Shown: piece by piece, positions 1,593-50,000 of the stretch
Layout: each line of letters begins with the position of its first letter
Numbering within the stretch: the first letter of the stretch is position 1
Assembly (NCBI GenBank): GCA_025602905.1
Contig: JAHLKI010000003.1
Span: 1,302,001 to 1,366,000, forward strand
Length of the DNA: 64,000 nucleotides
Direction of reading: 5' to 3'
DNA from: Phlyctochytrium arcticum
Taxonomy: Eukaryota; Chytridiomycota; Chytridiomycetes; Chytridiales; Chytridiaceae
Position numbers and translations under genes: made by a program
Notes under the pieces: generated by a model
Seen by the model: the letters and a program-made list of their open reading frames with translations, nothing else
What the model was told of the DNA's origin: nothing
Database searches by the model: none

Positions 1593-1700
1593 GAGAAAAC
1601 GTCTGATATACTGTACCCCTGTTTCTGCTCGAAATATTAAAATGCCCCTTTTTTTCCAAAAATCCTCAAATGCCCTTGTTTTTGGGGTGATAATGGAACA
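1593..1700 (+). repeat. MULE-1 left terminal inverted repeat
   Basis: Pairs with 3798-3902 on the opposite strand. The two arms agree along the ATGCCC-rich core and the TTGTTTTTGGGGTGATAA block, with scattered mismatches and the CTGTA insertion on this side only. Confidence 0.9.
1611..1615. other. CTGTA insertion (TA excision-type footprint) in MULE-1 terminal repeat
   Basis: The left arm reads GATATA-CTGTA-CCCCTG, the right arm GATATA-CCCCTG. Arms of one element start out matching, so this is a 5-bp insertion after a TA, giving TACTGTA. Confidence 0.85.
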
Positions 1701-1851
1701 TATCTGGTATAGACCACCATTCACTGCCACCTGTCTGATTCAGTTTTCTCACACGAAAAACGCAACGAAAACCATGAAAATACCATACAAATTACACAAA
1801 GGAAGTGTCTCTCTAGCATGCTACCATACATTATGTCCCTAGCAATGTCAA

Positions 1852-3671
1852 TCATCGATGAGCCTCACGACATGTGCGACGACTATGTCCCCGCTCTCCG
1901 CAAGTGCGACAACCTTGGTCCGAGGGAGTAGCTCCAGCTTGGGAAGATCCCTGCATTCCACTCTCCCTGCGACGAGTCTTCGGACGGCCTCGAGGACGTT
2001 TTACAACGGGAGGGTTTAGAACGTCTTTGGGAAGGTCTTCCAGAGTGACAGGGGCGTACGGGTGGCCATAGGCTGCGTTGTAGGTATCGATGGAGTAGAC
2101 GGATCCTACAAGCGAGACCGGTGATGCTCTCACTGCATTACCAAATGCGCATGCATGCTCGCATGGTATCCACATGAGTTGGAACTCTTTGCAAGAGCAA
2201 CGACCCTTAGAACTCGCCCCGGTTGAAAGATTGACCGCATATTGCTTTGCAGTCCTGCTGGATACAACAATGCCATCGGTAGTGGTGGCGCGCCGAGGGG
2301 TGAAAGATCGGCTGTGTAGAATGTCCTTTCGCAGGGTTTCCTCAACGGAGGGTGTCATAGTCCCCCGCCATGCCAGGGATTCTTGAGCTCGGTCATAAAA
2401 CTTCCCCATTTGATGCAGGTAGATCGAATGTACCATTTCAAGTGCTGGAAGGGTCCGAATCTCACGTAAAAGGGCGTTGGCAATCTCTGCCAGGTTTGAA
2501 GTAACATGTCCAAATCGCCTCCCAGTCACTGCATACGTAGCCCATCGCTCGTGGGGATTCTCGTCAATGTCATCTGCGGCTGCTGCATTCGTCGTGCAGA
2601 TCTCAGCCATAATCTCCAGAAACTTGGTTTCTGTGTCTGGAAGAAGGCCTTTGAAATTAGGCCTTGCTCAAGTAGACGTGTCGGTGATGTCGCAATGAAC
2701 CTACCCGCGTATGCGCATCTCCAAAATATCCTTTTCATCTGCAGGCCGTATCTATTCTGGACGTTCATTGAGATATGATAACAACACCAAGCGGGATAGG
2801 CATCAGGTGTCTGTGTTTCTAGCGCGTTTATAAGCCCTTTCTCTCGGTCATTGATGATAACAGTTTGGTTGCTGTTCAAGGTTGGCTGGGCGGCAGATAG
2901 ATGTTGAAGGAACCAGGTCCATGTTTCCTCACATTCGTGACGAACCAGGGCCCAAGCAAGAACAACCAACTTATCTTCGCCATCCATAGTGCACGCAAGT
3001 AGCAAAGTTTGTATGAATCTGTTCTTGGTGAAGGTTCCATCCGTTGCAAGAAATTTGCAGTTATGAGACCAAAAATGCTTGGCTCTTCCAGTACAAATGA
3101 AGACGCTGCGAAAGTGTTGTGCGTATGTTTGGGCAGCGTCAGGTAAGATTGCTGGAAGTTGAATGTTGCTTGCCTTGACAATCGCAGTGGTTTGGGGGTC
3201 CGCTGCCTGTAGGGCTGCACAGTCGGAGCGAAACTTTCGAAACTGCTCTCGTTGATCATCGGCCGATTCAGATAGAAGGGCTTCCTTGACACGTAATGCA
3301 GTGGAGTAGGATGGGACGTTCCCATATTGCTGACGCATGTGTGCCTGAATCTGACTTGGGGTAGTTTTACTAGTAACGACCATTCCAGCTTCAACTGTTT
3401 TGCTGACCCATTTCTTGGCATTCTGAGACCCCCGTTCTTCTTGGAGGTTGCCCACGCATGTATGTTCAGTGTTGAGCTTCGTAATCTTGCAAACTTGATG
3501 ATAATCTACAATTGCCCGCAAGTGAAAGGGACATTCCTCAGCACGACAAGCAAGGACCAAGCGTTTCATATCACGTTTGTCAACACTAAATGAGTATCCA
3601 TGAAGAGACGCATGGTCTGCTGCAGCTTGCACGACGGCGTCAAAGTTGTCAAAGGGAGTGCCAACCTCCAT
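1852..3671 (-). CDS. MULE-1 transposase (Mutator-like, SWIM zinc finger), intact
   Basis: Two exons on the minus strand, 3671-2705 and 2636-1852, with a 67-nt GT-AG intron (2704-2637). Together they give 584 codons including the stop, with no interruption. The intron position matches MULE-2. The N-terminal third has a FAR1/MuDR-like Cys-rich region (LVLACRAEECPFHLRAI). The DDE core starts at FLATDGTFTKNRF, followed by VIINDREKG and SNLAEIANALL. A SWIM finger, CSCKEFQLMWIPCEHACAF, and a C-terminal zinc knuckle, CRTCGERGHSRRTC, close the protein. It should bind the terminal repeats and catalyse cut-and-paste transposition in the nucleus. The start at 3671 is chosen because MULE-2 begins at the same point. 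Confidence 0.9.
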
Positions 3672-3797
3672 GATTTGCAGTGGCAGACTGTTGAACTGTT
3701 GAAACTTCAGGATCTTGAATCTTAGGATCGATCTCAGCTGGGATCTCAGCCAGATGAGGCCCAGATCCGACGTACAACTGAAATGAACTTCTGCGCC

Positions 3798-3902
3798 AGC
3801 CATATTATCATCCCAAAAACAAGGGCATTTTAAGATTTTTTGGAAAAAAAGGTGCATTTTAGAGATTTCAAGCAGAAACAGGGGTATATCAGACGTTTTC
3901 TC
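3798..3902 (-). repeat. MULE-1 right terminal inverted repeat
   Basis: Reverse complement starts GAGAAAACGTCTGATATA and lacks the CTGTA present in the left arm. It is followed by TTAGCGCAT. Confidence 0.9.
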
Positions 3903-3911
3903 TTAGCGCAT
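3903..3911. repeat. 9-bp target duplication of MULE-1, right copy
   Basis: TTAGCGCAT, identical to 1584-1592. Confidence 0.95.
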
Positions 3912-4147
3912 TGAAGGATGCCATCAGCTCAGCACCCACCTTGGCACTGTACGACCCAAGCCAGCCAACGTACGTATATACCGATGCATCAGGATGTGCA
4001 ATATTAGGATGTTTGGCTCAACCGGCTCAGGACAATGATGTGTTACCATCCCTGTTACCATTGACAATCACCGGGCTCAGGAACCTACAGAAGTTACGTC
4101 CGATATCGTACATCGCGCGGAAGTTGCAGGATGCGGAGACTCCATAT

Positions 4148-4152
4148 CCCGT
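4148..4152. repeat. 5-bp target duplication of solo LTR, left
   Basis: CCCGT, repeated at 4445-4449. Five bases is the usual duplication made by gypsy integrases. Confidence 0.9.
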
Positions 4153-4444
4153 TGTGACGGGTTCTGGTTCTTTTATACTAGCGGCAGGCGGCCGAATGAC
4201 ATGTGTCATTGGTCCCTGAGAGCGGTAGCACTTATTACGGCGCGAGCTGGCATGCGCCACACTCGTGACAGGTTTTCTTCCATCATAAAGTACTCTGATA
4301 GCATTAGACATACTGTAACTTTAAGTGTTTTTTGACCATTACACTACCCGAACTCTCGCAACCTGGGAAGTTGCATATAGCGCCCATTTTACTTTTCTTT
4401 GAGCCCCTTTCTTTCATCAGACCGATCCCCCTGACCCCTTTGCA
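4153..4444 (+). mobile_element. solo LTR of the E2 gypsy family
   Basis: 292 bp, starting TGTGACGGGTTCTGG and ending CCCCTTTGCA, clearly related along its whole length to the two LTRs of E2 (45337-45624 and 52058-52344). Flanked by CCCGT on both sides. It is a single LTR without internal sequence, the usual product of recombination between the two LTRs of a full element. It carries a 5-bp CTGTA insertion at 4313-4317 that neither E2 LTR has. Confidence 0.95.
4313..4317. other. CTGTA insertion in the solo LTR
   Basis: This copy reads AGACATA-CTGTA-ACTTTAAG; both E2 LTRs read AGACATAACTTTAAG. The insertion sits after TA and yields TACTGTA. Confidence 0.9.
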
Positions 4445-4449
4445 CCCGT
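4445..4449. repeat. 5-bp target duplication of solo LTR, right
   Basis: CCCGT, identical to 4148-4152. Confidence 0.9.
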
Positions 4450-4640
4450 GCACGAACAGGAATTGTCAGCGTTGGTCAAAACGTTGTGGTCGTTTTGTCC
4501 ATACCTAGTTGGACGCCGGTTTCGATGCTTCAGTGACCACCGATCGTTGACATTCCTACAGCAACAACCAAACTTGAGTACCGCGCCAACCGGGCCCATA
4601 CCTACAAACTACTTGGATTTTATAAGCAACACAATCGGGT

Positions 4641-6284
4641 ATACAAAAAAGTTGACATCAACCATGACGCACCTGCAACAATGTTCGACACCACAACAGT
4701 AGTGACAAATATCAAGAAAGAAGATCCAGAGTACGAAGCTCTCGCGAAAACAATTCATGCCTCCAGCAGCACACATTGGTAGCCGGAGATGCCTGCGGGC
4801 AGGAATCAGTCATGGTCAATGGCACAGTTCAGTTGAACGGTTGTTACTAAATTTCATTCTCTTCCGCAGCGGTGGCAGGTCCATCATGGTCAGCTTGAGG
4901 CAATTCTTCTGCGATATCCATAGGATTGCTAGGCCTGCAAACGTATTATAAACAAATGCAAATTGAAAGGCACTTTTGCCCTTACATCTGGCCATCCGAG
5001 TCCATTCCACCCATTGTGGACGTGGCAGGATTTATAAATCGTCTATGTGTGTTCGTACAGGGCGTTTGCAAAGTTTGAACAAAATGCAATGCCTAAATGG
5101 CAGAAGCTCTGACTCGGACTCCGACTTGGACAAGGCTTGACAAGCGGAGATCGGTGGCTGTGGACAAAATAGTTCTCATTTTGGCCATAATTGCCTCTAC
5201 CTTACTGGGGGCGTTGTTTTAAGTTTTGATGCCAGGCATCACTTTAACAACTTCCTTGATGTATAGCGTGCCGTATTACGTAAGCCTCCGCCTAAAGCTC
5301 AACTGCCCGGAGATCCACTGTGTTTACATAATTTGGAAGTTCCAACAAGTTACTGCCAAGATGGTGGCAAGATTGCAAGACCAGGGTATGCTTTTCACTT
5401 CAGAACTTTTTTTGGACTACTGTATGATATATTCAAACATTGATAGGGAGAGTATTTTTTACAAGAGAGACCACAACTTTTTGGGAGACTTTTTGTTGAA
5501 ATATGACCGAAGATTCTTCTTCGGTGGCTGGTATTGTGCGCAATTCACTGCCTTGCCATTGCAGGTGATCTTCTTGTTTTTGCAGTTGTTGCAAGCCTTG
5601 AGCCGGGGTTGTTTTTACTGGGCCGTAGCTGTGGTCGTGGTTGTTTTGGTGGGTGTACTGTCAGCGGAATCCTGGACGTGTAGTGGCCTTTGGGTGGTGG
5701 GTGATGTGCTACGCTTCCTTTTGTACCCAGTGGCGGCAGGTTCCGTGGTTATGCGGTCGTTGGCTGACGAGATTGCTTGGAGTGATGGGGCCTCTGACAT
5801 TACGGCGGGTGTGAAGGATGTGGATGGTCGAGACAGCGTGGCGGTGGGAGTGGTGGGTGCGGGGGAAGGAGCAGGGGATGCCAGTTCCGCTTTCTCGAGG
5901 GCAATTCGCTGAAGCCCTTTGGCAAGACCGGGCACACTCGTATTGCGGAATTCCATTGGGTTGTTTTTCTTCCCCATGTCAAGGAGCATCCTCTAGGTGT
6001 GCTTGGGATTTTGGACCTTGAGTGATGCGAGATACTCAATGCTCCAGTGGCGTTGATGGTGCGGGTGTTGGCTCATCGGAACTGGTATCCATTTCGCTGC
6101 GGTTGCCGTTGCTGACCTCTTTGGGTGCAAGCTCAGAGTAGATGATTCGTCTAATAACTCTTGTCCTTCCCAAGATGCTTCGGAGCTTTCGTCTGCGTAT
6201 GTGGCTGCCAATCGTTCTTTTTAAGGAAGCAAATCTGATCTATATCCATGTGGGTAAGTTCATAGTTGTTGCACTCTGTACCTT
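4641..6284. other. 1.6 kb without a supported gene
   Basis: No family motif seen on either strand. A minus-strand frame at 5989-5615 (124 codons, rich in Ser, Pro and Thr, with KRKRSTSP) follows the end of FamX-1 and could be a low-complexity exon. The plus-strand frame across it at 5226-5912 looks antisense. A TACTGTA heptamer lies at 5418-5424 but has no second copy to compare. Confidence 0.4.
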
Positions 6285-16486: not shown

Positions 16487-19383
16487 TTAATTACCTTCAT
16501 CATCACGCACAAGTTCCTTGTCAATGTTGTTTGAAAAATGCTTCAGGGACTTGGTTGCAATCCACTGGTACATTGCTGTACATTGGCAGTTGAAGATCAC
16601 GCAACCGCAAGCGGTCAGATCTTGCTTCAGCGAGTCTGATTTTAAGAAATCTCGCACTGTGACTTTTTTGGCCTTACTGGGAGATGGCCCATTCGTAATG
16701 TCAGCAAGAGGGGTCTTTGCGACCGGCATTGGAACACTTTGAAACCCTTCAACATCGATGTGGTTGCCGAGATTTACGAAGGGTTGACGGCGCAGCGGCA
16801 AAGGCAGAAGTGACTCCCGGATGGTAGCTAAGACTACCACGGGGATCTTTTCTGCGCTGGCTGGAGGGAGGTTTACCGTAGTGTTCTCTTTGTTGGTTGT
16901 AGCTGACCCGGAAGAGAGTACAGGGTTGGTGACGGGTGGGGCTGGAGCTGGAGGGCGGAGAATCAGGTTGTAATGCGGCAGAGCAGACGCATATGGAATC
17001 TTATCATGTTGTCCAACGACGTCAAAAGTGAACTGAGAAAGGGTGGAGAACAGGTCCTTGAGATACGCAACCATCCTCGGGACGACATCATCGGCTGCCT
17101 TTTCTAGCGGGGATAGGGCGGGAGTACGGGCCGGACCAGAGGTACCTGGCTCGACTTTGATTGGCGAAACTGGTTGTCCACGTAGCGCCAACTCCCTTTC
17201 TGTCATAGCCGCAAGCTGCTTGATGGCAGACTCACCCCTCATGGCGGTTATCAACATTGCCTTTCTTGAGACCTGCGCATTAGTATCTTGAAAGCGGATG
17301 GCGGCCCGGAGGATGGAGTGAAATACTTCCAAATCCTCACTTGAGAAAGTGGAGAAAAGGAAAGCCATTGCAACATCTTTTGGTAGGTGGGAGGGAAGCT
17401 TTTCTAAGAGACCAAGCTGGTAGAGGACAATGTTCACGTAGTTTTTCTTTCCCAAAAGAGTGAACAACGGGAACAGCCGCTTGAGGCACATCTTGATCTG
17501 TTCGAGATCCCCACTACACAGTAAATACGGACAATCCACCGCAAGAGGAATGTGATCTTCGAAAAGCGAGATGATCGAATCCACCATCGCCTTGCGGACA
17601 GGTGTTGCCTTTATATTGCTGGATGCCGCCGCCTTGTAGGAACGCAAGACTTCCTTACGGCACTCTTGCCAAGCGGTCATAGAGAGGGCCAACATTGCCG
17701 TCCTGCGCTTTGGCCGCATGTTGATGGGAGCTGTGTTTTCCACGTCCGGATACCCGGCAACCCACAGCCGGTGTATGATTGTCCAACCATGGACAAGGAC
17801 TGCCTCCTGTATGTTCAGGGCTATATGCATATTGTCCGGGACCGGTAGGACGTGAGGCCTGAGATTACTATACTTGGCTGATCGCAGCAATTTGCTAGCG
17901 TACAGTACATCCAAACATAGTAATCGCCGGCCAAAACCACAGACTTACTAAATGAACCGTCTTTGTCAGGATAGTTGACTTTCGCCAAGAATGTCTCGAT
18001 ATTGTCCATCACTGGTTCCAAATCGAGAGCGGACTTCATAGGCTTGTTGTCGCTGCCGATAATGTGGAAATCCTCTTGCGATCCGGCCTTGGTAGCCATA
18101 CTGTAGGCGTACATTTTTTTGGACAAAACTTCACCGTTACGTAGTTCCGCATACGTCTGCGTTGCGGGAGCACACAGGACTGAGGGAATCCATGTTGTGT
18201 CCTGCAACACAGAAGCTAGAACATCGGTGATTGCAGGAGGAAGAGGTGGCAGTTCCCTGTGAAGCTTTACCGCATAGTTGGCGGTGGTCCTCGCACTCGT
18301 AAACTTTCCGGGTGCGTTTGCGGCATCTGGTACAGGGCGGACTTGACACCAATGGAAGTCATCAATGGTGACGACCAAGAGTGGGTCATTCTCCAAAATA
18401 TCTTTCACAACGCGCTCGTGGGCCGTCATGATCATGTTGTTCATCCGCGTAATCGATTTTGACGGATGATAGCCCAGATTCACCCGTGAAAGAAGCCGTT
18501 GGTCTGTGTGGGATCCCGTGATGAAGACAGATCCGATATATCGTTTGACGTAATCAGTCTTCCGGTCCATACACTGTCCCTCATAGCATATGGCAAAGAT
18601 CAAGTGCCGCTTCATTCGATCGTTGTAGAGAACAGAATACCGGCTTTCGTCATGTCTGACCATGAGTGACTTGAGCTCATATAGGCGGGGATACTGAGCG
18701 ACAAATTCGTCCATCTCGACGAACGGATTTCCTCCGAACGGATGAGCAATGAAGTTGCGCATTTCTTGGTGAAAATCAGCAAGAGTCGCAGGAGATGGTC
18801 CTGATGTTTCAGAAATATCAACATCATCGCCTTCAGGTTCCGGAAGCTCGAAGTCCGTCATCAAGATGACACTGCCATTCGCAACCGCATCGACAACGTT
18901 GTCGTCACTGACTTGAGCGTTCACTGCTGCATCCACCACATTGTCGGTACTGATGCTGGCTTCCTGAATGGCCGCAACCTCATTGGGTTGAGCAGGGATG
19001 ATGGGCCTGACGGCGGGCTGTCGAATGATCCCTGCTTTGTACCAGCGGGTTCGACACGCATTGCAAGCATACGGATCAGCAGCTCCTGGTCCAACCTGGG
19101 GCCTCAAACGTGCCGCCCGACGGCTGTCAAGTTCAGCCCAAATGAACTTGTGAAATCGGGTTGAGCTCTTGGTCCCGCAGCCGATGCATCCAGGGTTATA
19201 GCCATATTTGTTACCCCTCTTACCGGGTACCTGATCGTACCAGCTAAGTCCGTCTGAGACCTGGCGCTATAATGGTTGTAATAAGAAGAAGTAAAAGAAT
19301 GAGTGAACTGACTCCTACAGCCGGATAAAGGCTTGTTTTCGAGATCATGAAGATGCCCATCTCACCTTTCTTTTGGGCGGCAT
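16487..19383 (-). pseudogene. U-family protein (candidate transposase), 930 codons, one 5-bp frameshift
   Basis: Exon 1 (19383-19366) encodes MPPKRK; a 99-nt intron follows; exon 2 runs 19266-16487. The frame is broken only by the CAGTA insertion at 17903-17907; without it the coding length is exactly 931 codons. Visible parts: a two-Cys pair GCIGCG near residues 33-36 and a second CNAC near 74-77, a likely zinc-binding head; an acidic linker; VTIDDFHWCQ near 305; YAVKLHRELPPLPP; VVLAGDYYVWMY then HVLPVPDNMH near 475; and a C-terminal CGCVIFNCQC near 890, like a CXC module. The layout (Asp-rich block, GD block, HVLPV...H block) recalls fungal DUF6589 proteins, which I cannot confirm. Terminal repeats and target duplication make a transposase role likely. 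Confidence 0.75.
17903..17907. other. CAGTA insertion in the U1 coding region
   Basis: On the coding strand U1 reads GGATGTA-CTGTA-CGCTAGC where U2 reads GGATGTACGTCAAC. Deleting five bases rejoins VWMY to KLLRSAKYS and makes the whole exon one frame. Confidence 0.92.
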
Positions 19384-19556: not shown

Positions 19557-19561
19557 CAGTA
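19557..19561. other. CAGTA insertion in the U1 5' region
   Basis: On the coding strand U1 reads TTTTA-CTGTA-CGTTATTGCAAAAC; U2 reads GCCTACATTTTTGCAAAAC. The alignment closes when CTGTA is removed. Confidence 0.65.
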
Positions 19562-21600: not shown

Positions 21601-22739
21601 GGCAGGAGGCGGCTTGCGCTATGATAGCATTTTGCCATGGTGCATCAGTTGAAGTATCAGGAGGTCTGCTTGGGAGGTGGATGACTTGACCGACAGTGGA
21701 CATCTCGGATTATTGTGTTTTGGTGTGGGGCAGGTTCTTTGCTTCAGAAGAATGGGGTGAACCTGAGTGGCAATTGGACAGCCGGAGCGGAGTTTTGTTT
21801 GCCAAAAGTGCTCAGCCACATCTCGGACAAGCATTCGGACATGGTAATATCTCGCGCAGACGCCTTCTAACCTTTGTCTTTCAGGGCATCAAGTCGTCGG
21901 CGTTTACCATTAGTCTAGTTCCTTGTTTATTTTTCAATGGTTTTGAGTATCCATTAGTTTGATTTTTCTCAAAATTTTGCTGAGCATATCAATTAATACA
22001 TTGGCTCCTTCCCTATGCAAATGCTAGGCTCAACATCTATGCCCAACAGAAATTTTTCAACAGGATGTGTGTGCAAGGGTAGTGGCAAGATGCATGTGTA
22101 AACAATAGACAATGATTGGACAAGTATAACCAAACATTATTAACAAAAAAAGTTGTTAAAAGGCAATGGCTGAAGATGAACACAAAAGATGCAATGGCTT
22201 TGAAGAAACTGTTTACCTCCACTGAAATTGTGCAAGACAACCTAAACTGTACAGAGCTTTTGACTGAAATGCGGAGTGTCCCACTCATTTGGCCCTAAAA
22301 GGGTGTAATGCTTGCCCAAAGAGGTATCATTACCAAAACCACGACCCGGCGAGGTGGAACAGGCGTCCTCTTGAGCTGGGACATACCCAGTCTGGCGTGT
22401 TGGTTCTGGGAACCTTGGGACAGTGCTCGTGTATCAAAACAGAACCTTTTTTAAAAAAAAGTCCATAGGGAAAAGACTATCATCGCCACACATAAACAAG
22501 AGCAAGTCTGATTAATAGTGATGAAAGTGAGGAAAAGAAAGGAGACAATAAATAAAACCGAGGGTCGAAAGATGAGAGAATTTAAAACCAGGTGAACAAG
22601 AAGATGATAGTCAGGACATGATCGTTGCTATGCAACCGACAACATCAGGTACTGTAAGCTTTGCCCCTGGGACATAATGGGATTAGCTGACACTTTCCTG
22701 AAGCAAAGCAAGAGGCATCATCAACTCACCACACTGACT
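21601..22739. other. about 1.1 kb, no supported gene
   Basis: Short frames only (for example 21696-21962) without a motif. AT-rich from 21900. A TACTGTA at 22650-22656 has no comparison copy. Confidence 0.4.
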
Positions 22740-27465: not shown

Positions 27466-29376
27466 CGAATTGAATGCTATATGGAGAATGAATCGATACT
27501 CAGACCAGCCTTTCTGCTTGCGTATGTTGTCAAGCCAGAGCGCTGCACTTTCAGCACTGACTTGGTGAGGCTCCATCCTGGACGTGATAGCATCGACAAG
27601 GATCTTGCGTCGGTTGAAAAAGCGCCGTTCATTGCCCTGGCACCAGGTCGTGCGCCACTGTCTTTCTAGATCCTTGATCGCGGGCCTAAGAGCGAGACCA
27701 ATGTCCCACTCCCGCCAGACATCTGGCACCGTATGAATGCCACGGCTCATCATATGGTGGGGAGCCCGGGGAGGCACGTGTTGCGGAGAGTTGTTGTTGT
27801 TGGCGGCTTGCTGATTGGTACCACGTTGGTTGGCAGGCTGCTGCTGCAGAGATGGCGCGCCCAAGGATCCAGTTGCAGAGGTCGGTGCACCATCATGAGG
27901 AGGACCAGCGGCGGCACCAAGATTGAGAGGAGGGCCCGCTTGCATTGGGTCACTCATTACCTTGCATAAAGTCGACCGACGCGTGAAGACAAATGGGCGC
28001 TCTTCCGGTAAAAATATCAGTCAGAACCTGCTGCAATCCATTCAATCTGAGGTCCGTAGATCAACTCGCTGCTTGCTGGGATACGTGCATGGTCTTTAGT
28101 GTTTCGTTCAGAGCATCTAATTTATCGGACACAACCGGAATGGCGCGTTGTAGAACAAGATCGGTTGGCTCCTTCACCTCCTCCATCGACGCCCGCAAAC
28201 TCAATATACAGTGGATATTGGAAGATCGGATGATGCCGGGTGGGATGGCACGTGAAGTGGACGCGCAGCTGAACTGAGTCTTGCAGGATAGTCAACCGCA
28301 ATCTACGCAGAAGCTCCAGGAACCCGCCGGCCGCAATATTAGGCTCAGCGCCATCTCCCGTCGCTAGCCGTTCTATCCCAAGGTCCACATCAGGGAAAAT
28401 GAGCTTCTGCAATTCCTCGGGGGGGTCCAGTGTTGCGCGCTTCAAAAAGTAGGTACCCCCTTCCACGCTGTGGCCCGAGTTTGAACGAAGGACCTCACGC
28501 GGCAATGCAGTCAAGTAGCAAGTTTCCATTGACTGTTTGTTCCACCAGCCCGCGCGGCATATATGAGCATCTGATGCTCCTCCTGGCCCCAGCACGTTGG
28601 CCGACATGAGTCTTGGCTTGCGACTCAAGTCCAATTGAAGCCAATGCGGGCATGATGCCGGCGTAGTGCATGTTATAGGTCATGGGTTTATGCAGATCCT
28701 TGCCACTCTTCAATGTCTTGATTAAATACCATGAGGGACTGTTGGCGAAGGACGGGAAACTCTTTTGCATAATATGCCAGCGCCAAAAAAAGTTGAGGCC
28801 AACGGCCGCCCATGGACAGATCTGCACTTCCTTATTGCAAAGACATGCACTGATCTCCAATTGGTTATGTTGATTGGTTTTACCTTGACGCAGCGACGTG
28901 ATCATAGCGTAGCACGGTTGGAAGCCTTCTCTTTCCAGTTCACAGCAGTTCATATCGGGTAACTCTAAATTCCGTGCAAATTCTCCACGCAAAAGGTCAT
29001 AATGGGAGAGTAGGAAAGTTGCCCTAATATGTACAGCGTGCCTCTTGGTCTGGCGCCACCAGTAGGACCCAATCCCAATCATCTGCCCGACTGTCATGTA
29101 TCCATCTAAATGAGTTCCTCGACCTCGATCCGTAAAGTTGGCTCTATCTGTCGCAGTCTGGGTAACTTGAGCATTTTTGGTCAGGGCATTAACCGTCTTG
29201 TCGCGGGGACGAGGGTTGGTATTCATTCCAAGATGTTTTTGCTGTTTGTATAGATCTACCAGCGCTGATGCATATGCTTCGACAGTCCCGAGGCCAATAA
29301 TCTTCTCCGCAGCTCCGGGCTTTTGCCTTTTGCGAGACTTACAACCAACAACCTCCGTTTCCAGGAAAAAATGCAA
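27466..29376 (-). pseudogene. Crypton-2: tyrosine recombinase with GCR1_C-like tail
   Basis: Minus strand. The first long frame (29376-28495) has TVEAYASALVDLYKQQ, ANFTDRGRGTHLDGYMT, LRGEFARNLELPDM, LRQGKTNQHNQLEISA and KTHVGQRAGA (HxxR-type box). A frameshift near 28590 leads to AGWWNKQSMETCYLTALPRE with the likely catalytic Tyr, then FLKRATLDPPEELQKLIFP. After an intron the tail (27957-27466) has a disordered Gln/Asn-rich start and VPDVWREWDIGLALRPAI, a GCR1_C-type domain. This pattern is that of the Crypton and Ndc10-like family. It differs in sequence from Crypton-1, so they are separate subfamilies. The breaks make it non-functional as read. Confidence 0.8.
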
Positions 29377-29633
29377 CGAAGTCCGGAGACAACTTGCAAC
29401 TTTTTAAGCGTTAACCAAAACTGCTTTATCGCGGCTTTGTCGGACTTTCAGTACCGGAGCTGAGCCAGTGTGAGCCGCACCCATGGTACGCGATTTTGCT
29501 TCAAATTTATTTTCTAATTGCGACATTGCTTCAAATATGTGGACTTTTTTGAAGCCAAAAATCCAGAAAAGTGGACTTTTTTGGGGTGAGACGCGTTGCA
29601 ACCAGCCACAGTGTCGTGACGCAGACAGGGAAC

Positions 29634-29642
29634 AAGTCTCAG
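29634..29642. repeat. 9-bp target duplication of MULE-D, left
   Basis: AAGTCTCAG, repeated at 32968-32976. Confidence 0.9.
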
Positions 29643-32600
29643 GGCGGGTGCCAAATCTCCAGGGGCCTTTTTGCCAAATTCACATCCCCTGTTCAATGTG
29701 ACTCACGACCCCCTCTCATAAAGTGCATTCACAGCCACCTGGTTTGGACAAAAGTCCGACAAGTGTCCTCAAATACCTTTGTCCATCCAATGTACTGCCT
29801 AAACAGCTTACACTTACCGTAGCCCGTCCCAAAAAACAAACCATTTCATCTGATAGTAACCGCTCAGAAGAAGCTTTAAAAGCCATGCAAGCAAATTTAG
29901 CAGCGCACCAAGAGGCAGCCCGACAGATGCAACAACAGCTGGCAGAGTTCATGTCTTTGACACCCGTCACGCCGACGTTGATGCAATCGGCTGCGCGAGC
30001 GGCATTACAACCTGCGGGTACCATGTCTATTGTCGTCCGGTCCGATGGTATGTTGAACTCCCATATGAAAATCGTGTCCTATCAAAGGTCTAATTTGGCT
30101 ACTGTTTGTTTACGTTTTCCAGATGTCCTTGCTTCAGACCGTGTGAACAGCACCAAAACTGCCATGCCAACTGATCTTCAGGAACACCCTCAAGGTATAT
30201 TATGCCCCCAGACACCCCAATACAGAGAAATCAATTGATACATCCTGACCATCAGAAATTTGGATCGAGCGTCCTGAGGCAGACGGTGGCGATGTTGATG
30301 ATGAGACGACCGTAATCGGTGAACCTCACCAAGTGATGGCGCCTAACGATATGGCGATGCCTGAAAACACCCATGGTATGCTTTGAGCAAAGGGTGCAAG
30401 GTCTGCAGCACATTAATCTTATATGCGCAGCATGGACTCCTCCGTTGCCGCCTCCTGGACCGCTTGCTACTGCTACAGACGCCGACAATGCACTAAAACA
30501 GTTCGCATTGGATAACGGCTTTGCGATTGCTAATCTCAGAACGGAACGCATCGCGGGACCGGGAACCCCTATTCACAAATATTGGCGGGCGCTGCGCATG
30601 TGGCGGGGAATACAAGCCAAAGGACCAGGGAGTACCCCTGCTCAAGAGAAAGAGCAAAAAAACGGGCTGCAAATACATGGTCACTCTGAAGGGAGAGGTG
30701 AAGAATGGGCTCGTTGGGAGCTGGACAATCAAGTTGTGCGAGGGCAATGGAAAGGGAACTCACACAGGCCATCCGCAACTCTCAAGGGCAGCCTTGAGAA
30801 CATTTTTCCAAGCCCGCTGTTTCACCCAAAATGTCTGTGTTAAAAGTGATATCAATAATATGATTGAAGCGGGCACCAAGCCGGAGAAATTCTAGCGACG
30901 ATCAAGAAGCACCCGGCAGCTCCACTTATCATTGTCAAAGAAATTACGAACCAGAAAACGAAAAAAGTTGAAGACATTTTGCAGGGTCGTTCCCCCTTGG
31001 CAGCCCTGCTGGATCACTTGTCAAAATCGGTCAATCAGGGGGCCGTCACTGATGTCATACACAACGAAGAGAACGTCCTCACTCACCTATTTTTCCAAAC
31101 TGACGTACGTTTGATGGTTCATCAATCTTCCGTCCCTTGCTAAATTTAAAGGCGTAAAGCGAAAAATGGCTGAACTGTTGCGTAAATTTGGGGACGTCTT
31201 GATCTTGGACTGTACCTATCGTACAAATCGCCATAAGCTCCCACTTCTCCATGTTGTCGGAATTACCAATACTGCGCATTCGTTCTCGGGAGCATTCATG
31301 CTCATGGCGCAGGAGACAACTGAAGATTATAAGATCGCACTCAATTGTTTAACGGCATCTCTGCCCAAACCACCCTCTCTTGTTGTCATCGATTGTGACA
31401 GCGCGTTCATTGCAGCTGTTAAACAAGAATGGCCAACAACAAAGATCATTCTTTGCCGATAGCACCTTTGGCAGAACATTAAGAAAAATTGCCAGAAGTA
31501 CTTCGTAGATGAGAATGAGAAGTTCGATGCCAACGCATGGTCCGATTTCAAATTGTAGGTTTCACATTCCTTTCTGTAAAATGGAAATCCCTGAACGTGC
31601 TCCTTTAGATCTTGGATGGAGCTTGAGGGGGCTACCACCGAGGAGGAATTTCAGGAGCGTTGGAAGCAGATAGAGATGGATGTTGATGAAAAAACCTTCG
31701 CGTATCTCGAGAAGAATAAATTGCCGCTGCGCCAACATTGGGCTAGCATTTATATCGACAAAGTCCAACACTTCAATACCACCGTAACTTCCAGGGTTGA
31801 GGGAAAGCATTGGGCGGCCGTCAAAAAGAATGGATCCGCAAAATCAACAATCTTAACTTTGTACAAAACCATCTCTCGTAACTGTGCGCAGCAGATGGAA
31901 AATTTTGAAGATGCTGTTGTGGAGGATTTGACGGGCACACATCGTTTCCTGACCGAGGACAACCTACCAGAAAAACCCAAAAAAACAAAGCAGTGCCCAA
32001 TCCCCGTGAAAATGAAGGCCTTCTATGCGGACATCCACAACCGCTTGCCTGTGCATATTCTGAAGATGGTTGACCAAGAAAGAATAAAGGCGGATCGCAT
32101 TGTCAAAGCAAACAATCCCGACAACGTCCTGAGTGGAAGTACTATGGTGCTGAAGCCATGCTCGTCATGGCACAGAACAGTCATGGGGGTGCCATGTTCT
32201 CATGAGATCCTAGCCATGCGACAGGAGAAGCGGGCACTCCGACTATCGGACTTTACGCCGAGATGGCATCTGCCGCTATGCAACCAAAGGTCGGAGGTGC
32301 AAGAACCCTCTATCCCTGGTCGTTTCAATGTACTTTCTTATCAGCGCGGGAACAAACGTTTGCGCACATCGGCAGAGCGCGCTGAGAGTCAGCTAATGGC
32401 CAGCCAGAGACATTGTGGATTATGTCAAACACGTGGTCATGACCGAAGCCAGTGTCCTTCGATTGCGCTTGCGGCGGCGCAAACAGCGGAGGACATGGCC
32501 CAGGATATGAATGCGGGCCCTCAGTGGAGACTGCGCTGGACAGTGCCCTGGAGCCGCCGCGAAAAGTTCGTGCCAAGGCGCGTTGTACTGTTTGCGGGTC

Positions 32601-32967
32601 CACCAAACACACCTTCAAGAAATGCCCATCCAAATAACGCTCTTGGGCTGCGTGCTCTTTTGAGGTTTCCTTTCTCGCGTGCGTCTGTTCGACCCTATTG
32701 TGATGTTTACATATGGCTTGAATATATGATTTGTGTGTATCTCTCTCATAACACTTGTGGCAGATTACTTTCGACATTTCACAGAAGCAAGCGTCTCCTA
32801 CATGGGCTTACTTTGTCTTTCCGTTGGAGAAGCTTGCAGCCTTGCAATGCAATAAAGCGGAATGAGCGCAGGTGGCTGTGCATCACATTCATTGTCATAC
32901 CAACAACTGACGTGACTCATGCGGGACGTGAATTTGGACAAGCACCCCTGGAGATTTGGCACCCGCC
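29643..32967 (+). mobile_element. MULE-D, Mutator-like element with intact ends
   Basis: 3,325 bp. The left end reads GGCGGGTGCCAAATCTCCAG and the right end is its inverted copy. Similarity continues inward for about 70 bp through CCAAATTCAC and GACTCAC. Both sides carry AAGTCTCAG. The gene inside is damaged, so the element is probably not autonomous now. Confidence 0.9.
29723..32637 (+). pseudogene. MULE-D transposase, multi-exon, broken
   Basis: The N-terminal exon (29723 on) encodes a Gln-rich helix and is followed by GT-AG introns (for example about 30048-30121). A FAR1-like head reads CACGGEYKP and GCKYMVTLKGEV (about 30580-30690). The DDE core reads FGDVLILDCTYRTNRHKL (31186 on), SLVVIDCDSAF, then ILCR followed by a TAG where relatives have Trp (31460-31462), then HLWQNIKKNC. 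The third block is TSRVEGKHWAAVKK. The SWIM finger is degenerate, with GVPCSHEI kept. Two zinc knuckles end the protein, CGLCQTRGHDRSQC and, in another frame, CTVCGSTKHTFKKC. At least three frame changes plus the stop make it dead. Confidence 0.8.
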
Positions 32968-32976
32968 AAGTCTCAG
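32968..32976. repeat. 9-bp target duplication of MULE-D, right
   Basis: AAGTCTCAG, identical to 29634-29642. Confidence 0.9.
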
Positions 32977-32986
32977 TTCCAGGTCT

Positions 32987-33101
32987 GAGTCATCGCTTGT
33001 GCTGAGGGTTTACCCCAAAGTGTTGTCCCTGATTTTGGTCCACGCCAAAACCCTCAAATTAAATTGCGTACAGTCACCGCGCCAGGAATCTTCCGTAGCT
33101 A
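32987..33101 (+). repeat. inverted repeat pair, left arm
   Basis: Matches the reverse complement of 35068-35185. Shared blocks are GCTGAGGGTTTACCCCAAAG, then CCTCAAAT and GCGTACAGTCACCG. About 115 bp long with small gaps, separated by 2 kb that contains the tandem repeats. Confidence 0.8.
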
Positions 33102-33651
33102 CGCCTGAAATGTGCAGCTATATGTGACTCTTGTGTTGACTCATACATTGAAAATACAACCACCTGCCCCTTTGGATGCCGGCAATTTTCAAGGTGGGAC
33201 CCAAGGGGGGAGCTTTTCTTGTCATGAGTCATGACTCGTTTGTTGACTCACCCATTATGCTGGGGCCTGTGCTGCACAACAAACCAACAGTGCTGAGGGT
33301 TTACTTAGCATATGTTAATGTCTATGAGTTTGTGGCAGAAACAGGCATAGCAATATGTATGTATTGAGGAAGATATTGAATTACAGGCAAACAACTATCA
33401 TTTTAATTCCTTCCATCTCAGTGGTAACTTTTGATCTCTCCCTTGGGCACCTAGCATGTATTGGCTACCGTTTGAACCTACCAGGCCGCTAAACATCGCT
33501 TTAGTTCATTCGATCGTTGGTCTAGTAAAACTACTGAACTCTCCATTGCAAGCCTGGTGTCTGAAAAGCTGTCAGCTATAGTTCAATTTCTTTCATTCTG
33601 TGCATGTAACTTTAACCTTTGAACTCTCCCTTGCGCACCTGGCTTCCATTA

Positions 33652-33656
33652 CTGTA
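33652..33656. other. CTGTA insertion in one tandem repeat unit
   Basis: This unit reads CCATTA-CTGTA-GCTACCGTTTGAATC; the next reads GCATTA-GGTACCGTTTCAATC. Confidence 0.65.
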
Positions 33657-36782: not shown

Positions 36783-36787
36783 CTGTA
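36783..36787. other. CTGTA insertion in FamX-2 RNase H-like block
   Basis: GCCAATA-CTGTA-TTCTTTCG. Removing it restores GMLSANILSSDFSHNLPKR, which fits the family pattern. Confidence 0.88.
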
Positions 36788-38299: not shown

Positions 38300-39677
38300 A
38301 CAACGCCACTAAACGATCATCTAATTGACACCAACATTCGTTGTTGATGGTGTACAAGCCAATGATAGGTCGATGCGATTGAGAACTGGTATCCCCTTGG
38401 CGGCACGACCTTTCGTTTTCGCAGCCTCCTTGTGGGATCCATCCGCACCCCACACTTGGCCATCTATTAGTTGTTGATGACAGCGCATGTACTCTTCCAA
38501 AGTCCATTGCATTCCGTTAGGCTCCTACAATGGAATCATTTAGACGGATTCACTTCCAAACAACCTCCCGAAAACACGTACCACCAATACCACCATTTTG
38601 AAGAGTTGTGTGTATACTGTTGAGAGGTAGTGTTCTGAAGGGATAAATCCTTTGTATCTATTCTCGTCATAAAATCACCAAAGTCCAAGTACTGTAAGTG
38701 CTCCTGAGCTCATTGTTTACCCTTGGAAGTATCTGTGCTTTGCCAGCTCGAAGAAAGTTTTCCTGAGCGGTATGAAGTCTGGCAACATAGACCAAAAGCA
38801 ACGTTGTGTATCTCTCCATAGGGTTATGCATCAGGTGCTCTCGACAGGCTTTGACGCCCTTGCCATGCACAATATTATCGCGTAATTGATGCAGAATACG
38901 CTGAAGAAAAGCACTTCTCTGCGTGAGAACAATAGGAAATGACGCACAGCTGGATTAAGAAGATCAGTAACCTTTGAATCATAACCATGGAACGTCCCGC
39001 AAATATCACTTTTAGCCCCTGACGATCTAATATCCTGTGCGATCCTCCAAAATAACTCGTCTAAGAGTTCTGGCGAATCCATCTCGTTTCACTGCGGAAC
39101 TTTTTTTGCAAGACGGACAAGGAGGCTTGCCGTTTTCTAACATTCCTGGGAATTGCAGTTCAGGAACCCAAACAAACACAGGCTACATATGGCATTCTGC
39201 GTCAGCTGTGAGAATGCGAAACCTGTCAACGAAGATTACCTTCAAAAAGTATTGAGAAACTACCGGAAACTCCTCCAAAGGAGCCTCGTGACAGCCTAAA
39301 GCAGGATTTATAGGATGAACCCAAAAATATTCGAATGGAAGGGGAACTTTTGCCTTGCTGCAGTATTCCACCACTTTTTTGATCCATGAGTGGAAACTAT
39401 CCTGGTTTTGATAGCGCTGCTTCACAAGAAACGGAAGTTGTTCCAAGACACTCTTGGCGGCATCCGTCAGTCCGCTAGGCACTTGCATGGCCGTGGCAAA
39501 CGGGGATGGCTGTCTCGCAGCACCGGGACCTCTGGGGTGCTTGGGGTCTATGAGGGCCGTTGTGCTCGCTTGGGAGGTGGCATTTGCACCTGAGGCAGAT
39601 ACAGGTGTAGTGAATGTAGCGGGGATAGCTCCTGTATTTGCCGATGTATTAGCAGCTGTGTCATTGTTGTTGGACAT
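38300..39677 (-). pseudogene. FamX-3: third member of the cysteine-rich/RNase H-like family, truncated
   Basis: Minus strand from ATG 39677. A disordered Asn/Thr/Ala-rich start leads to FEYFWVHPINPALGC. After an intron come GKPPCPSCKKSSAVKRDGFA (about 39110) and FHGYDSKVTDLLNPAVRHF, the two halves of the DUF6729-like domain. A helical block HGKGVKACREHLMHNPMERY follows. The next part reads STYLDFGDF and YKGFIPSEHYLSTVYTQLF if CTGTA at 38692-38696 is removed and one T is added nearby. The gene ends at VWGADGSHKEAAKTKG, the form of an RNase H first strand, just where FamX-2 also ends. The two genes converge and both lose their C-termini at about 38340. Confidence 0.65.
38692..38696. other. CTGTA insertion in FamX-3
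   Basis: On the coding strand the gene reads AGCACTTA-CAGTA-CTTGGAC. Removing CAGTA gives RSTYLDFGDF, the family pattern, instead of an early stop. A further one-base change is needed downstream. Confidence 0.75.
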
Positions 39678-43692: not shown

Positions 43693-43803
43693 GAACCCTA
43701 ACGGCCAAAGTGTAGCCTACATTTTTGCAAAACAGTCATTCACCATCTGTCCATTTCCACACAATCTTTTGCACTACACACCTCCAGTAAACTCTCGAAA
43801 CTA

Positions 43804-43808
43804 CAGTA
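43804..43808. other. CAGTA insertion in the U2 leader
   Basis: U2 reads GAAACTA-CAGTA-CCTCAACCGG; U1 reads AAACCTCACCTCAGCCGG. The fit improves when CAGTA is removed. Confidence 0.55.
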
Positions 43809-43895
43809 CCTCAACCGGTATGGGAAGGAGACTCTGTGACTTTATCTGAACCTTTTCTGACAGGATCTTTAGTATTCCGACGCACAAGTGACAGC

Positions 43896-44594
43896 ATGCC
43901 ACCGAAAAGGAAGGTGAGATGGGCATCTTGATCAACTTGAACATCAAGTGCCGCTACAGTCTACTGATCGTAATTCCTTCGTCATTTGCCTTTTTTCTTG
44001 AACCTCGGAAATCCTCAGGCTGTAGGCTCATGAGTTTGGTTCTATGAAGTGCCTGGAAGAAAGAACGGCAAGTGGTACTTTATACCCGGCTGTTTTGGTT
44101 GTGGGACCAAGAACTCCTCCCGATTTTACAAGTTTGGATATGACGAGCTTGGTAAGCTGGCGATGAATGGTGTGAAGCCTCAGCTTGCGCGTAAGGCCGC
44201 TGCCCCGTATGCTTGCGAAGGGTGTCGATCTCGATGGTATAAATACGGATTCTTCCGACCTGTGGAAATTGTACCAGATGAATCGCCGGAAGCAGATGAG
44301 GATGAAGCCGTAGTCATGATGGTGGATCATGATGAGCCGGAGAACTTGTATCCCATCACCATTATCACTCCTTCGAAACCGGAGGAAGAGGATCCTGCAA
44401 CGGTCAATGACTTGAAAAGAGCCATGTTGGACTTTATCAAACGTCCTTTCGACGGGAATCCCTTTGTGGATGTCGATGGATTCATTGCGGCATACCCACA
44501 TCTGTACGCGCTCAAGGCCACCTCGATTGGCTTCAAGGACACACCGCTCCAATCCGTGCTCTACAGGGACCGCATGAAGAGAAAAATTATTTTT
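43896..44594 (+). pseudogene. U2 gene, part 1
   Basis: Exon 1 begins at ATG 43896 and reads MPPKRK before a GTGAGA donor at 43914, exactly as in U1. In exon 2 a TGA precedes VWFYEVPGRKNGKWYF. The zinc-type head is kept: GCFGCGTKNSSRFYKFGYDE and YACEGCRSRWYKYGFF. The frame runs to RDRMKRKIIF at the MULE-2 target duplication and resumes at 53803. Confidence 0.8.
44586..44594. repeat. 9-bp target duplication of MULE-2, left
   Basis: ATTATTTTT, repeated at 53794-53802. Confidence 0.9.
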
Positions 44595-44798
44595 GAGAAA
44601 AAGTCTCATATGCCCCTGTTTTCATTCGAAATTTCTGTTATGCCCCTCTTTTTTAAAAAATCTCAAAATGCCCTTGTTTTTGGGGTGATAACTCAGCTGG
44701 CGCAGTAGTTCATCTTGGTTGTGACTTTAGCCCAAGGATCAGGCCCAAGGATCTCCGTAAGGAGGATCAACATTCTGAACCACTTCCTTCCAGCAATC

Positions 44799-45624: not shown

Positions 45625-45637
45625 TGGTAGCACCACC
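45625..45637 (+). promoter_or_regulatory. E2 primer-binding site
   Basis: TGGTAGCACCACC starts at the first base after the LTR. TGGTAGC is what pairs with the 3' end of an initiator methionine tRNA in yeast Ty elements; position 8 differs from that example. Confidence 0.7.
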
Positions 45638-46260
45638 TTTGTGGTTTGATTGAAAACAAGGTCGGCTTTCCAATTTTGTTTTTGAAGTTTTTGAAGTTTA
45701 CCCTTCTCTCACGTATCCGTTCTTTCTTTCCAGTATCATGACTTCCAAGCCTTTGAAGACTCGCAAGGGGCAGAAGGGTGCCACCGACGGTGAAGCGTCG
45801 AAGCGTGACAAGAAGGAGGAGGCCGTCAGGAAGGCGAGACCGTCGATGACCTTATGGACGTCGAGGGTGGAGCTGACCCCTCTCCCCCTGCTGGGCAACC
45901 CCTCACTGAGCAACGTCGTGGGTCGACTGGCGCAGCGCTTGGCGGAAGCCTTGCGGAGTTGAAGTTGACCGCGACTGATGCCAGGGACAAGGGTAAGGGC
46001 CCAATCCCCGAGACCGAGGCAGAGCTCTGTGCTCTCCATGACGAAGTAGTCCGGTTGAAGGGACAGCTCCGGGAGCAGGAAGCGCAGGTACCCGGAATGC
46101 CGGTGAACCCTGGATCCACTCCCCAAGTAGGCAGCTCCTTCTTTGAAGTGAGCGAGCTGAAGTCCTTGCAGAAGTCGGCGAGCGAGGCTCGTTTTGCGGG
46201 AATTCGGGAGGATTGCACGGCCAAAAGGATCCGTGACTTCTTGGTACGTCATCACGACTG

Positions 46261-46265
46261 CAGTA
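46261..46265. other. CAGTA insertion in E2 gag (first)
   Basis: CACGACTG-CAGTA-CATGGAG. Removing five bases joins RHHD to MERHLTGAARSW in frame. The left flank is TG rather than TA, possibly a later A-to-G change. Confidence 0.7.
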
Positions 46266-46700
46266 CATGGAGCGTCATCTGACGGGAGCCGCGAGATCGT
46301 GGTTGGACTCACTTGGTCCATCTTGCCCCCGTTGCAGAACGGACTTTGAAGCGATGTTGGGGAGTCGCTTCATGGAACGTAACCCAAGACCTCGGGTTAT
46401 TGCCCAATTGAGAGGGTTGCAATGCAGCAACTACTCGGAGTACCTAGCGGTTTTTAACCGTCTGACCTCCCAACTGGCTGTAGGAGGAGAGCCACTGCCC
46501 GATTCCGAGGTTCGCGCCCTTTTCAGGGATGGGTTGAACCGAGGAGGGCATGTCTGGGCTTCTATGGGCAAAGACATTTTGCGTCATGCCCATTCAGTGA
46601 GGTCGGCCAATGCAGGTATCGCTCCAGCCACAGTGGCGGACCTGCAGCCCATTGGATCGGAGTTGTTGGAGATTTTCTCCCTCGACAACAACGGCAAGTA

Positions 46701-46705
46701 CAGTA
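46701..46705. other. CAGTA insertion in E2 gag (second)
   Basis: GGCAAGTA-CAGTA-TGTCTATG. Removing it restores the frame NGKYVYAAGAPTEG through to the zinc knuckle and stop. Confidence 0.9.
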
Positions 46706-47023
46706 TGTCTATGCCGCCGGCGCACCCACTGAGGGTTCCGCGCCCACCGATCCCGCCAACCCTGGACCTTCCGGATCGTCTTCCAAGAGAGGGAAGGCGA
46801 GTGTATCCGCGGTTCAGTCTCGCGATTCTCGCAAGGCGGCACCTTATCACAAACGTGGTAAGGGCAGTGGTCAGAACGGAGGGAGTTCTGGATCCGGCAA
46901 CCGCAAAGAGGGCGGTTTGTCTGGGAACAGACCGCAAGGGGGGGCCCCGGCCTTCTTTTGTTTTGTCTGTGGGAGCACTGCGCACGTTGCCCGCATGTGC
47001 CCCAACAAAGCCACTGGTCCTTC

Positions 47024-47063
47024 GGGAAACTAGAGGAGATGGGCGAAGACGGCACAGGCCGTC
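47024..47063 (+). promoter_or_regulatory. likely -1 ribosomal frameshift site between E2 gag and pol
   Basis: G GGA AAC at 47024-47030 fits the X XXY YYZ slippery pattern in the gag frame and is followed at once by the gag stop TAG. Moving back one base continues into pol as [16 protein letters not shown]. Downstream, GACGGC-ACAG-GCCGTC (47048-47063) can form a stem, extended by ATGG/CCAT pairing that would start 8 nt after the slippery site. GGGAAAC is a known site in some retroviruses. Confidence 0.7.
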
Positions 47064-50000
47064 CATCCTTAGATGTTAGTGTTTCTTGTACTTTGACAAA
47101 TACATTATCATCTGTAAACTCTGTGTCTTTGCATCCGTTGGTACCGTCCGAAGGTTCATCCGAGAAAGGAGAAGCTACGCATACCGTAGGCAGTGAGCGA
47201 CCGTCTGGCGTGGTTCGGGTTGCTCCTGCTGAGGTCGCGAAGGGTTCTTCCGCCACAAATGAAACTCCGAGGCGTTCACCACCAGGGATGATTGATCCTG
47301 CCATCTCACCATATGCCTTTGTGATCTATGGGAAGCTGAACGGCAAGATGGCCCGAATGCTCATTGATACGGGCTGTGACACGATGATGGTCAGTGACAA
47401 ATGGGTTCGGAAACATGGTTTTCCAACCCATTCTCCTCCCACAACCATTGAGGTTGAGTGGGGTGACGACGGGGAAACATTCATGTCCACGCGTATGATG
47501 AAGGGTGACCTGGAGATCTACACGAACGCGGGCGAAAAGATCGGCTTCCAGGAAGCTCCGTTCATTGTGGCACCGCTCCGAGTTGATGTCATCTTGGGAC
47601 TCCCCTTCATCCTGGACCTTGAATCCCTCCAAATCGACAAGGTCGATGATTACCCCCGTCTGTCCTTCACTAAGGAGTTGACTCGCCATTATTGTGAAGC
47701 GCGACCTGTGTCACGCAAGTGGTCGGGAAAGTTGAGCTGCAACGCCAGTTCTCTGCGTTACTTCGCTTGCAAACCGAGCTCCTCACGCCTGAAATCGCCG
47801 TCGGAGCTTCCTGGAGTGAAGCAGATTCCAGAGCTCCTTCGGGCAGACAGGTTTTTACGCGGTGTGCGGAAAAAGGAGTTTGTCTCGGTGTTTGCTGTAC
47901 AAGTTGACGTTGAGCGCTGGATTGAGGGGGGTGGCCGTGTGCGTGTCGCTCCTGCCTCCGCGCGGGTGAGTGCAGCCCGATCGCAAGCCCGGGAAACTGG
48001 AACTCAGGAGTTGAAGGTCCCTGACAGTGTCCCCGACCCGCTGGCTTCGATCCCTGCAGATCATCCGTTGCTGGCGATCTTACGCCCATATGCAAAGACT
48101 GTATTTGCGGAGTTGCAGACTCTACCACCTTCTCGAGGAGAAGATGATTTCAAGATTGAAATCGAAGGCAAGGAGGCGCCTGTGTCAGTATCTTTGCGGC
48201 CAATGGGTCCTGATGAGCTCGAGGAGCTCCAACAGCAAATTACCAAACTCTTGGCCAAGGGATGGATCCGCCATTCTTCAAGTCCGTGGGGCGCCGCTGT
48301 GCTATTTGCGAAAAAGAAGGATGGTACTCTTCGTTGCTGCATTGATTACCGTGGGTTGAATCGGCAGACAAAGAAGGACCGTACCCTTTGCCACATTTAG
48401 CCGAGTTGCGTCACCGTACGGTTGGCAAGAAGTGGTTTTCGCTGTTGGACATCAAGGACGCTTACCATTGTGTGCGCATCAGGGAAGGTGACATCCCAAA
48501 GACTGCATTCAAAACCCGCTTTGGACATTTCGAGTACGCCGTGATGCCGTTTGGGCTAACGAACGCACCTGCGACTTTCCAACGGATTATGAACAAAGTC
48601 TTTGGAAGCATGTACGATGATTTCATTATCACGTACTTGGACGACATTCTCGTCTTCTCCGACACGCTGGAAGAGCATCAGCGCCATGTCGAGAGTGTGC
48701 TGAAGGCATTGGATGCCAGCGCACTGTATGTCAAACCGTCCAAATGCACTTGGGCTGTGCAGGAAGTTGAATTCTGTGGCCATATGATGGGTCAGTACTG
48801 GCGTCCGCATCTCTGAGAGCAAGATTGCAGCCGTCCAGAGCTTTGCTGTTCCCCGGAACTACAAAGATATTCAATCCTTCCTGGGTTTGACCAACTACCT
48901 TTCATCGTATGTCGATAGGTATGCTGAGATCGCGCATCCGTTGTCTGAACTGCAGTCTGGCAACAAGCCCTGGCAGTGGACCGATGCGGAGATCAAAGCG
49001 TTTGAGACGCTGAAGGAGAAGATTTCTACGGCTCCTGTGTTGACGCCGTACGATCCAGACAAGGAAGTCTACATGTTCACCGACGCGTCTGGCTTTGCCA
49101 TAGGAGGATGGCTTGCTCAACCAGCCAATGCAGATGACACTATGCCTTCGCCTTTGCCAACTACGGTTGCAGGGTTTAAGGATCTGCCCCGGCTGCGTCC
49201 CATCTTGTACTTCTCGAGGAAGATGCAAGATGCAGAGCCATGAGCAGGAGTTGCTTGCGCTTGTCAAGATGCTGAAGGCGAACCGACAGTTCCTCATGGG
49301 ACGCCATTTTCGCGCTTTCGTCGACCACAAATCTCTGATCTACTTGCAGGAACAGCAGCATTTGAGTCGTCGTCAGGCGAATTGGGTCGAATTTCTCCAA
49401 CAGTTTGACTTTGACATCGAGTACCTTCCTGGTGAATGGAACACCGTTGCCGATGTCCTTAGCCGTAACCCGTATTACGCGCCGCGTTGTGCGGATTGTG
49501 CGCAACGAGTTATGGTTAACGCTGTGACGGTTCAGGCAGCACACCTTTCCGAACATCGTGCGACGATCAAGGTTACGGTTAATGCCGCCCGCGCGAAGAA
49601 GCGCGCAAGGAAGCATATGGCACAGGCAGTCGGCCAGCTGGAAGATGTTCCTTCCGACCCCCTGCAGTGGGCCAAATTGCTTCGATCGGACGACTTTGCT
49701 ATCCAAATGCGGCAGAGTTTGGAGGCAAAGTCGAAAGCGCCGGAGACTATGTCAGTCCATGAGCGACGCTTTTCCGAAGAGGACCTCGGTATGCAGACCG
49801 ACGACGGCAAGCCGGCTTCGTTGCTCCGCTACGAGGGTCGCCGCTATGTCCCCGACGCGTTACGCACTGCGCTGTTAACGCGTTATCACGATTCCCTGCT
49901 GATGGGCGGACACACCGGAAAGCATTCGACTTATGCTCGCTTGCTCCAGGAGTATTACTGGCCCGGTATGGAACGCGACGTTTCGGACTATGTTACCACA

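Follow-up and report, generated by a model that had tools for sequence, protein, structure and literature searches.

The 64,000-nucleotide stretch analysed here (the window; contig JAHLKI010000003.1, called C3, positions 1302001-1366000) comes from the chytrid fungus Phlyctochytrium arcticum and carries 5-bp insertions at TA dinucleotides, which leave the heptamer TACTGTA or TACAGTA (together TACWGTA, W being A or T) where other copies of the surrounding sequence lack the five bases. At the confirmed sites these insertions are very probably the excision footprints of Tc1-type transposons resembling Sleeping Beauty. A first-pass annotation of the window had proposed Tc1/mariner excision scars, and the proposal is supported for the sites that survived comparison by the inserted CWG with its second TA, by a sequence-blind tally of indels, and by the residence in this genome of elements with CAGT ends. 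Sites were compared one by one with other genomic copies of the surrounding sequence, all of them read from assembled contigs (contigs are given below as C and compared loci as L, each with a number).

The most striking site is 17903 (TACAGTA at 17901..17907; all heptamers given with a range lie on the plus strand), located in a multi-copy element. Exactly 5 bp are missing here in 12 of 12 copies at 98-100% identity (L078-L089, drawn from 14 full-length copies in that range and compared over 121 bases each), and they are likewise absent from all 16 alignments that span the site at about 62-68%. Site 1611 (TACTGTA, 1609..1615) falls within one terminal arm of an element whose frame 2529-3902 has a MULE transposase domain; the 5 bp are absent both from the element's own other arm near 3883 and from a paralogous arm (window 44594-44691, read on contig C61). 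The insertion at 4313 (TACTGTA, 4311..4317) is private to its copy of a multi-copy repeat, as 10 of 10 distinct copies are without it, and that at 38692 (TACTGTA, 38690..38696) is missing from all three homologues, which are about 73-75% identical (L051-L053). Site 46701 (TACAGTA, 46699..46705) belongs to a copy of a long terminal repeat (LTR) retrotransposon with protease and integrase domains downstream; among eight other copies compared, seven are short by exactly 5 bp and one (L024) by 6, and the scar recurs in a neighbouring, 100%-identical copy (C3:1369151-1372391) and in C61. A probable scar at 43804 (TACAGTA, 43802..43808), in the multi-copy stretch 43718-44594, looks like an insertion against 16 of 16 copies (L031-L046), but the net difference is 4 nt rather than 5. 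Thus, among the twelve insertion sites listed in the first-pass annotation, five are confirmed and one is a near fit, two (35785 and 36783) have the reading frame as their evidence, and four, treated below, are not supported. For 35785 and 36783 no genomic copies were found except on the near-identical contig C61, and a protein search with the DUF6729 frame near 36783 gave no match at E <= 0.001.

Three further sites had not been listed. The TACAGTA at 56211..56217 is an insertion relative to L072 (86% identity), and the TACTGTA at 63424..63430 is flanked by words that also occur in L073-L076, where the 5 bp are missing and the sequence is TTCTTA-TCTTTATG in four of four homologues; the BLAST gap at this site is placed elsewhere because the neighbouring T-rich stretch differs too. 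A probable scar, TACTGTA at 22650..22656, faces a homologue (L077) that is short by 6 nt. The seven exact window scars contain CAG at three sites and CTG at four, a split such as random mismatch repair would give.

The heptamer is in excess in the window as a whole. The earlier count of about 21 occurrences against roughly nine expected by base composition proved accurate: 12 TACTGTA and 9 TACAGTA are present, where base composition predicts 8.5, an order-1 Markov model 3.0 and an order-2 Markov model 4.76 (all three fitted on the window itself). Under the order-2 model, TACAGTA/TACTGTA ranks first by excess among 8,192 heptamer pairs (P 3.6e-8), and the dinucleotide-matched control TAGTACA/TGTACTA, a single word, occurs three times. 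Genome-wide, TACWGTA occurs 4,110 times in 31.48 Mb, or 8.4 times per 64 kb, and therefore the density in the window is 2.5 times that of the genome. The matched control word occurs 1,918 times genome-wide, leaving an excess of about 2,190 that need not consist entirely of scars and in which scars copied along with multi-copy elements are counted repeatedly. Comparators were found for 12 of the 21 window heptamers (the others being those at 5418, 14457, 26528, 27326, 27452, 35783, 36781, 43412 and 56333). Nine of the twelve are insertions, seven of exactly 5 nt and two (22650 and 43804) with one extra base changed, and three (18099, 19555 and 33650) are without a demonstrated insertion; the heptamer at 18099 was rejected as a scar since none of the four homologues examined, out of 16, has a gap there.

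A tally made without regard to sequence points in the same direction. The window was aligned with L001-L061 (excluding L017, a duplicate of the window), all short indels with matching flanks were listed, and alternative placements of the same indel were merged by hand. Eight distinct non-homopolymer 5-bp events resulted, of which five are TACWGTA (1611, 4313, 38692, 46701 and a new one at position 3782 of L024), although the choice of loci was partly guided by their matches to scarred elements, so that they do not sample the genome at random. Random 5-mer insertion produced TACWGTA in 0.07% of simulated trials. Site 17903 falls outside the tally, its near-identical copies having been retrieved later.

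The search for Tc1/mariner copies with CAGT ends that the first-pass annotation had called for turned up two families with TA duplications. A profile for the DDE_3 domain gives 29 matches across the genome, and the two families, A (1,605-1,608 bp in four well-assembled copies) and B (1,596 bp), belong to the Tc1 clade of the Tc1/mariner superfamily, having the DDE domain, the TA duplication and the terminal inverted repeats (TIRs). These repeats are perfect over 29 bp and start with CAGTGACT in both L005 (A) and L010 (B), and CAGT ends predict the very word found at the scars. TA flanks both sides in nine of ten elements inspected, the exception being L013 (family B), whose right end is without its last base and the second TA. 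Both families score above the Pfam cut-offs for DDE_3 and HTH_Tnp_Tc3_2; the catalytic triad is DD34E, with 34 residues between the second D and the E as computed for family A, and the catalytic part of family A matches that of Sleeping Beauty SB100X (5cr4, E 6e-55). Each end combines an outer and an inner motif, 161-163 nt apart and in opposite orientation (L005:721-2327 for A and L010:1112-2707 for B, one copy each). Counted by exact pattern, which misses degenerate copies, family A has nine ends in five copies and family B 15 ends at nine places. The longest frames starting from methionine are 364 aa in three of five A copies and 338 aa in four of six B copies, the others being shorter, so that open frames of 338-364 aa exist in seven of the 11 elements read. 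Identity among the family A copies L005-L008 is 99.4-100%, and those on C25 and C61 are identical across 1,607 bp.

Comparison of near-identical contigs shows that family A copies are present on one and absent from the other. The first-pass annotation had found no copy of a TA-targeting transposon in the window; this holds for the window itself, but C61 carries a 1,607-bp family A element with TA duplication at the position where C3 has a plain TA without a scar (window 30049..30050, no strand assigned). Locus L006 accordingly aligns to window 29331-30050 and 30048-31166 with the element in between; apart from this element, C61 differs from window 26617-51000 by five single bases. A family A copy on C4 faces a plain TA on C83, one on C72 faces an empty place on C3 with 3 nt fewer, and one on C80, located at an error-prone contig end and short of 2 nt at its right end, faces an empty place on C3 with about 4 nt more. 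Four of the five A copies, the ones covered by this comparison, are therefore absent from a near-identical partner contig; the fifth lies on C25. The partners may be alleles, cell lineages within the culture or duplicates of recent origin. Recent insertion accounts for a plain TA better than excision with a scar does, so the contig pairs show movement and not the formation of footprints. Together with the open frames, these presence/absence differences suggest that families A and B may still be moving.

The footprints could arise as follows. An element would insert at TA and duplicate it; on exit, the transposase would cut both ends 3 nt within the element, so that each flank keeps a 3' overhang reading CAG. 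Such CAG overhangs can pair, which would match C with G and G with C around a central A:A mismatch, and end joining with mismatch repair would then yield either CAG or CTG, giving TA-CWG-TA and a net gain of 5 bp. We infer the cutting and repair steps in this genome, as well as the direction of the change. In passages of PMC7827188, Sleeping Beauty and mariner transposases are described as nicking 3 nt inside the element to leave 3-nt 3' overhangs, and end joining is described as leaving Sleeping Beauty footprints identical to these overhangs. No element was seen still sitting at a scarred TA, though no systematic search for one was made, and none of the four contig pairs compared has an element opposite TACWGTA; consequently, we infer the link between the scars and family A or B, as opposed to a relative that had these ends and has since been lost.

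Alternatively, the scars could have been made by another Tc1 group or by a non-autonomous element with CAGT ends, lost or unsampled, a possibility judged unlikely yet carrying appreciable weight. The exact ends of families A and B (9 and 15) are few against the seemingly numerous scars, some scars, perhaps old ones, show up only in comparison with homologues of 73-86% identity, and other DDE_3 groups exist. The one further group inspected that has clear ends, L062 (C28:205700-208000), begins with TA-CTCCTCTG and has the ends TA-CTCCTCTGTG; because these ends are unlike CAGT, the group should leave another footprint and was set aside as a source. A search for TIRs in L009 and L016 found no clear ones, and families A and B fit the scars without extra assumptions. 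That the 5-bp insertions are small tandem or target duplications from unrelated events is very improbable. One site, 17903, can be read as GTACA-GTACA and could on its own be a tandem duplication, but none of the six remaining exact scars in the window has the sequence of a tandem duplication, and simulated tandem duplication produced TACWGTA in 0.7% of random trials as against the five of eight events observed. Assembly errors are the least probable source and scarcely credible. The difference at 48793 amounts to 1 bp between contigs, and many 1-bp gaps occur on C61, mainly near its ends, and on C80; the scars, by contrast, involve one sequence in units of 5 bp, those at 17903, 38692, 43804 and 46701 recur on C61, and no 5-bp difference between C61 and the window appears in alignments of 800 bp or more.

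Several findings, in addition to the tandem appearance of 17903, weigh against interpretation of the heptamers as Tc1 footprints. Four of the twelve sites first listed found no support on comparison: at 19557, 16 of 16 spanning homologues read GTACAGTA; at 33652, three of three copies run without a gap through the matching position; at 46261, the CAGTA is common to other copies and is adjoined in the window copy by a 58-bp deletion; and at 48793 the difference is the single base mentioned above. An old scar at 33652 keeps some plausibility since another repeat unit inside L047 is short by 5 nt. The deletion in the LTR-retrotransposon copy lies at window 46259-46260 relative to L019, L020, L022 and L024, and is present in C61 as well. 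Two of the newly found sites (56211 and 22650) depend on one homologue each. In the tally, three of the eight events, at L024:5476, L050:50 and window 54680, are not TACWGTA. The heptamer is also common on the large contig C1, with 100 occurrences within the first 892 kb, so that not every heptamer is a scar. Additionally, none of the four sites that lie opposite a family A copy reads TACWGTA: those of C61/C3 and C4/C83 are plain TA, and the differences of 3 nt in C72/C3 and 4 nt in C80/C3 are not CAG or CTG.

Sequences beyond the window contain what may be compound footprints. In a multi-copy sequence at C3:1079 kb, three of three spanning paralogues each miss 10 bp at TACAGTATACTGTA and 10-11 bp at TACAGTATACAGTA (L001:1501-1514, C3:1079256, and L001:2943-2956, C3:1080698), and each of the two is read as a putative pair of adjacent scars at a TATA-type site. 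Both 10-bp double scars are also present on contig C80. At a third scar in this sequence (L001 near 2862, C3:1080617-1080623), the CTG is retained on C3, and the near-identical C80 is 4 nt shorter, the only one of 17 gaps over 4,456 bp to exceed a single base; this hints at recent and independent repair, although C80 is error-prone. A wider proposal, put forward as a tentative and on balance doubtful one, is that a few resident Tc1 copies move so often that scars far outnumber copies (an excess of about 2,190 TACWGTA against about 14 places with exact ends, 5 for A and 9 for B), that some TATA-type sites were hit twice to give the 10-bp double scars, and that movement continues in the sequenced culture, as the four of five A copies that differ between near-identical contigs would indicate. 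If this were so, the other transposons in which these elements landed would be held in check by scars that shift their reading frames.

Transposable elements abound in the window; seven of ten scanned frames have a Pfam family and the other three have none. The families among these frames include MULE transposase (twice), an LTR-retrotransposon protease and integrase, NDC10_II and DUF6729/exonuclease; the Pfam scan found no family in the two long frames around 17903 or in the frame 31595-33124. Three copies of the element around 17903 (C27:67064-69618, C4:608115-610668 and C1:1273395-1275960) are broken by 227-238 bp with an overlap of ~5 bp at the break, and these interruptions are perhaps solo LTRs, as judged by coordinates only. 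The insertion at L050:50 creates TACCATA, which a different TA-targeting element may have left as its footprint.

The data make the history of cut-and-paste excision legible in a chytrid, with the repeat copies serving as built-in empty-site controls, and they point to natural relatives of Sleeping Beauty with open transposase frames that are possibly still mobile. The ratio of scars to resident copies, together with the double scars, could provide a measure of how often an element leaves as opposed to stays. Among the matches listed, titles and the beginnings of abstracts held nothing on such scars in a chytrid, which is weak evidence of novelty as subscription journals lay mostly outside the literature covered.

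The mechanism itself is known; the novelty lies in its occurrence in a chytrid, in elements that may be active, in the double scars and in the inversion of the inner motif. Tc1 and Tc3 of C. elegans are alike in belonging to the Tc1 clade with HTH_Tnp_Tc3_2 and DDE_3 domains, and their footprints are of other length or sequence. The impala element of Fusarium oxysporum, also a fungal Tc1/mariner element, leaves a footprint of the same kind as TACWGTA, but its host belongs to another phylum. Sleeping Beauty, a reconstructed fish Tc1-like element, likewise has ends that begin with CAGT and a related catalytic domain, and each of its ends too has an additional motif further in, which in the chytrid elements lies about 190 nt from the end; its end repeats are direct, whereas in the chytrid elements the inner and outer motifs face opposite ways. 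The Sleeping Beauty footprints given in passages of PMC4378557 and PMC3432063 are the TACAGTA and TACTGTA found here, at odds with the TAG(T/A)CTA printed in the review PMC2874221, in a passage of which impala is listed as active. Unlike the reconstructed Sleeping Beauty, the chytrid elements are natural copies resident in their host genome.

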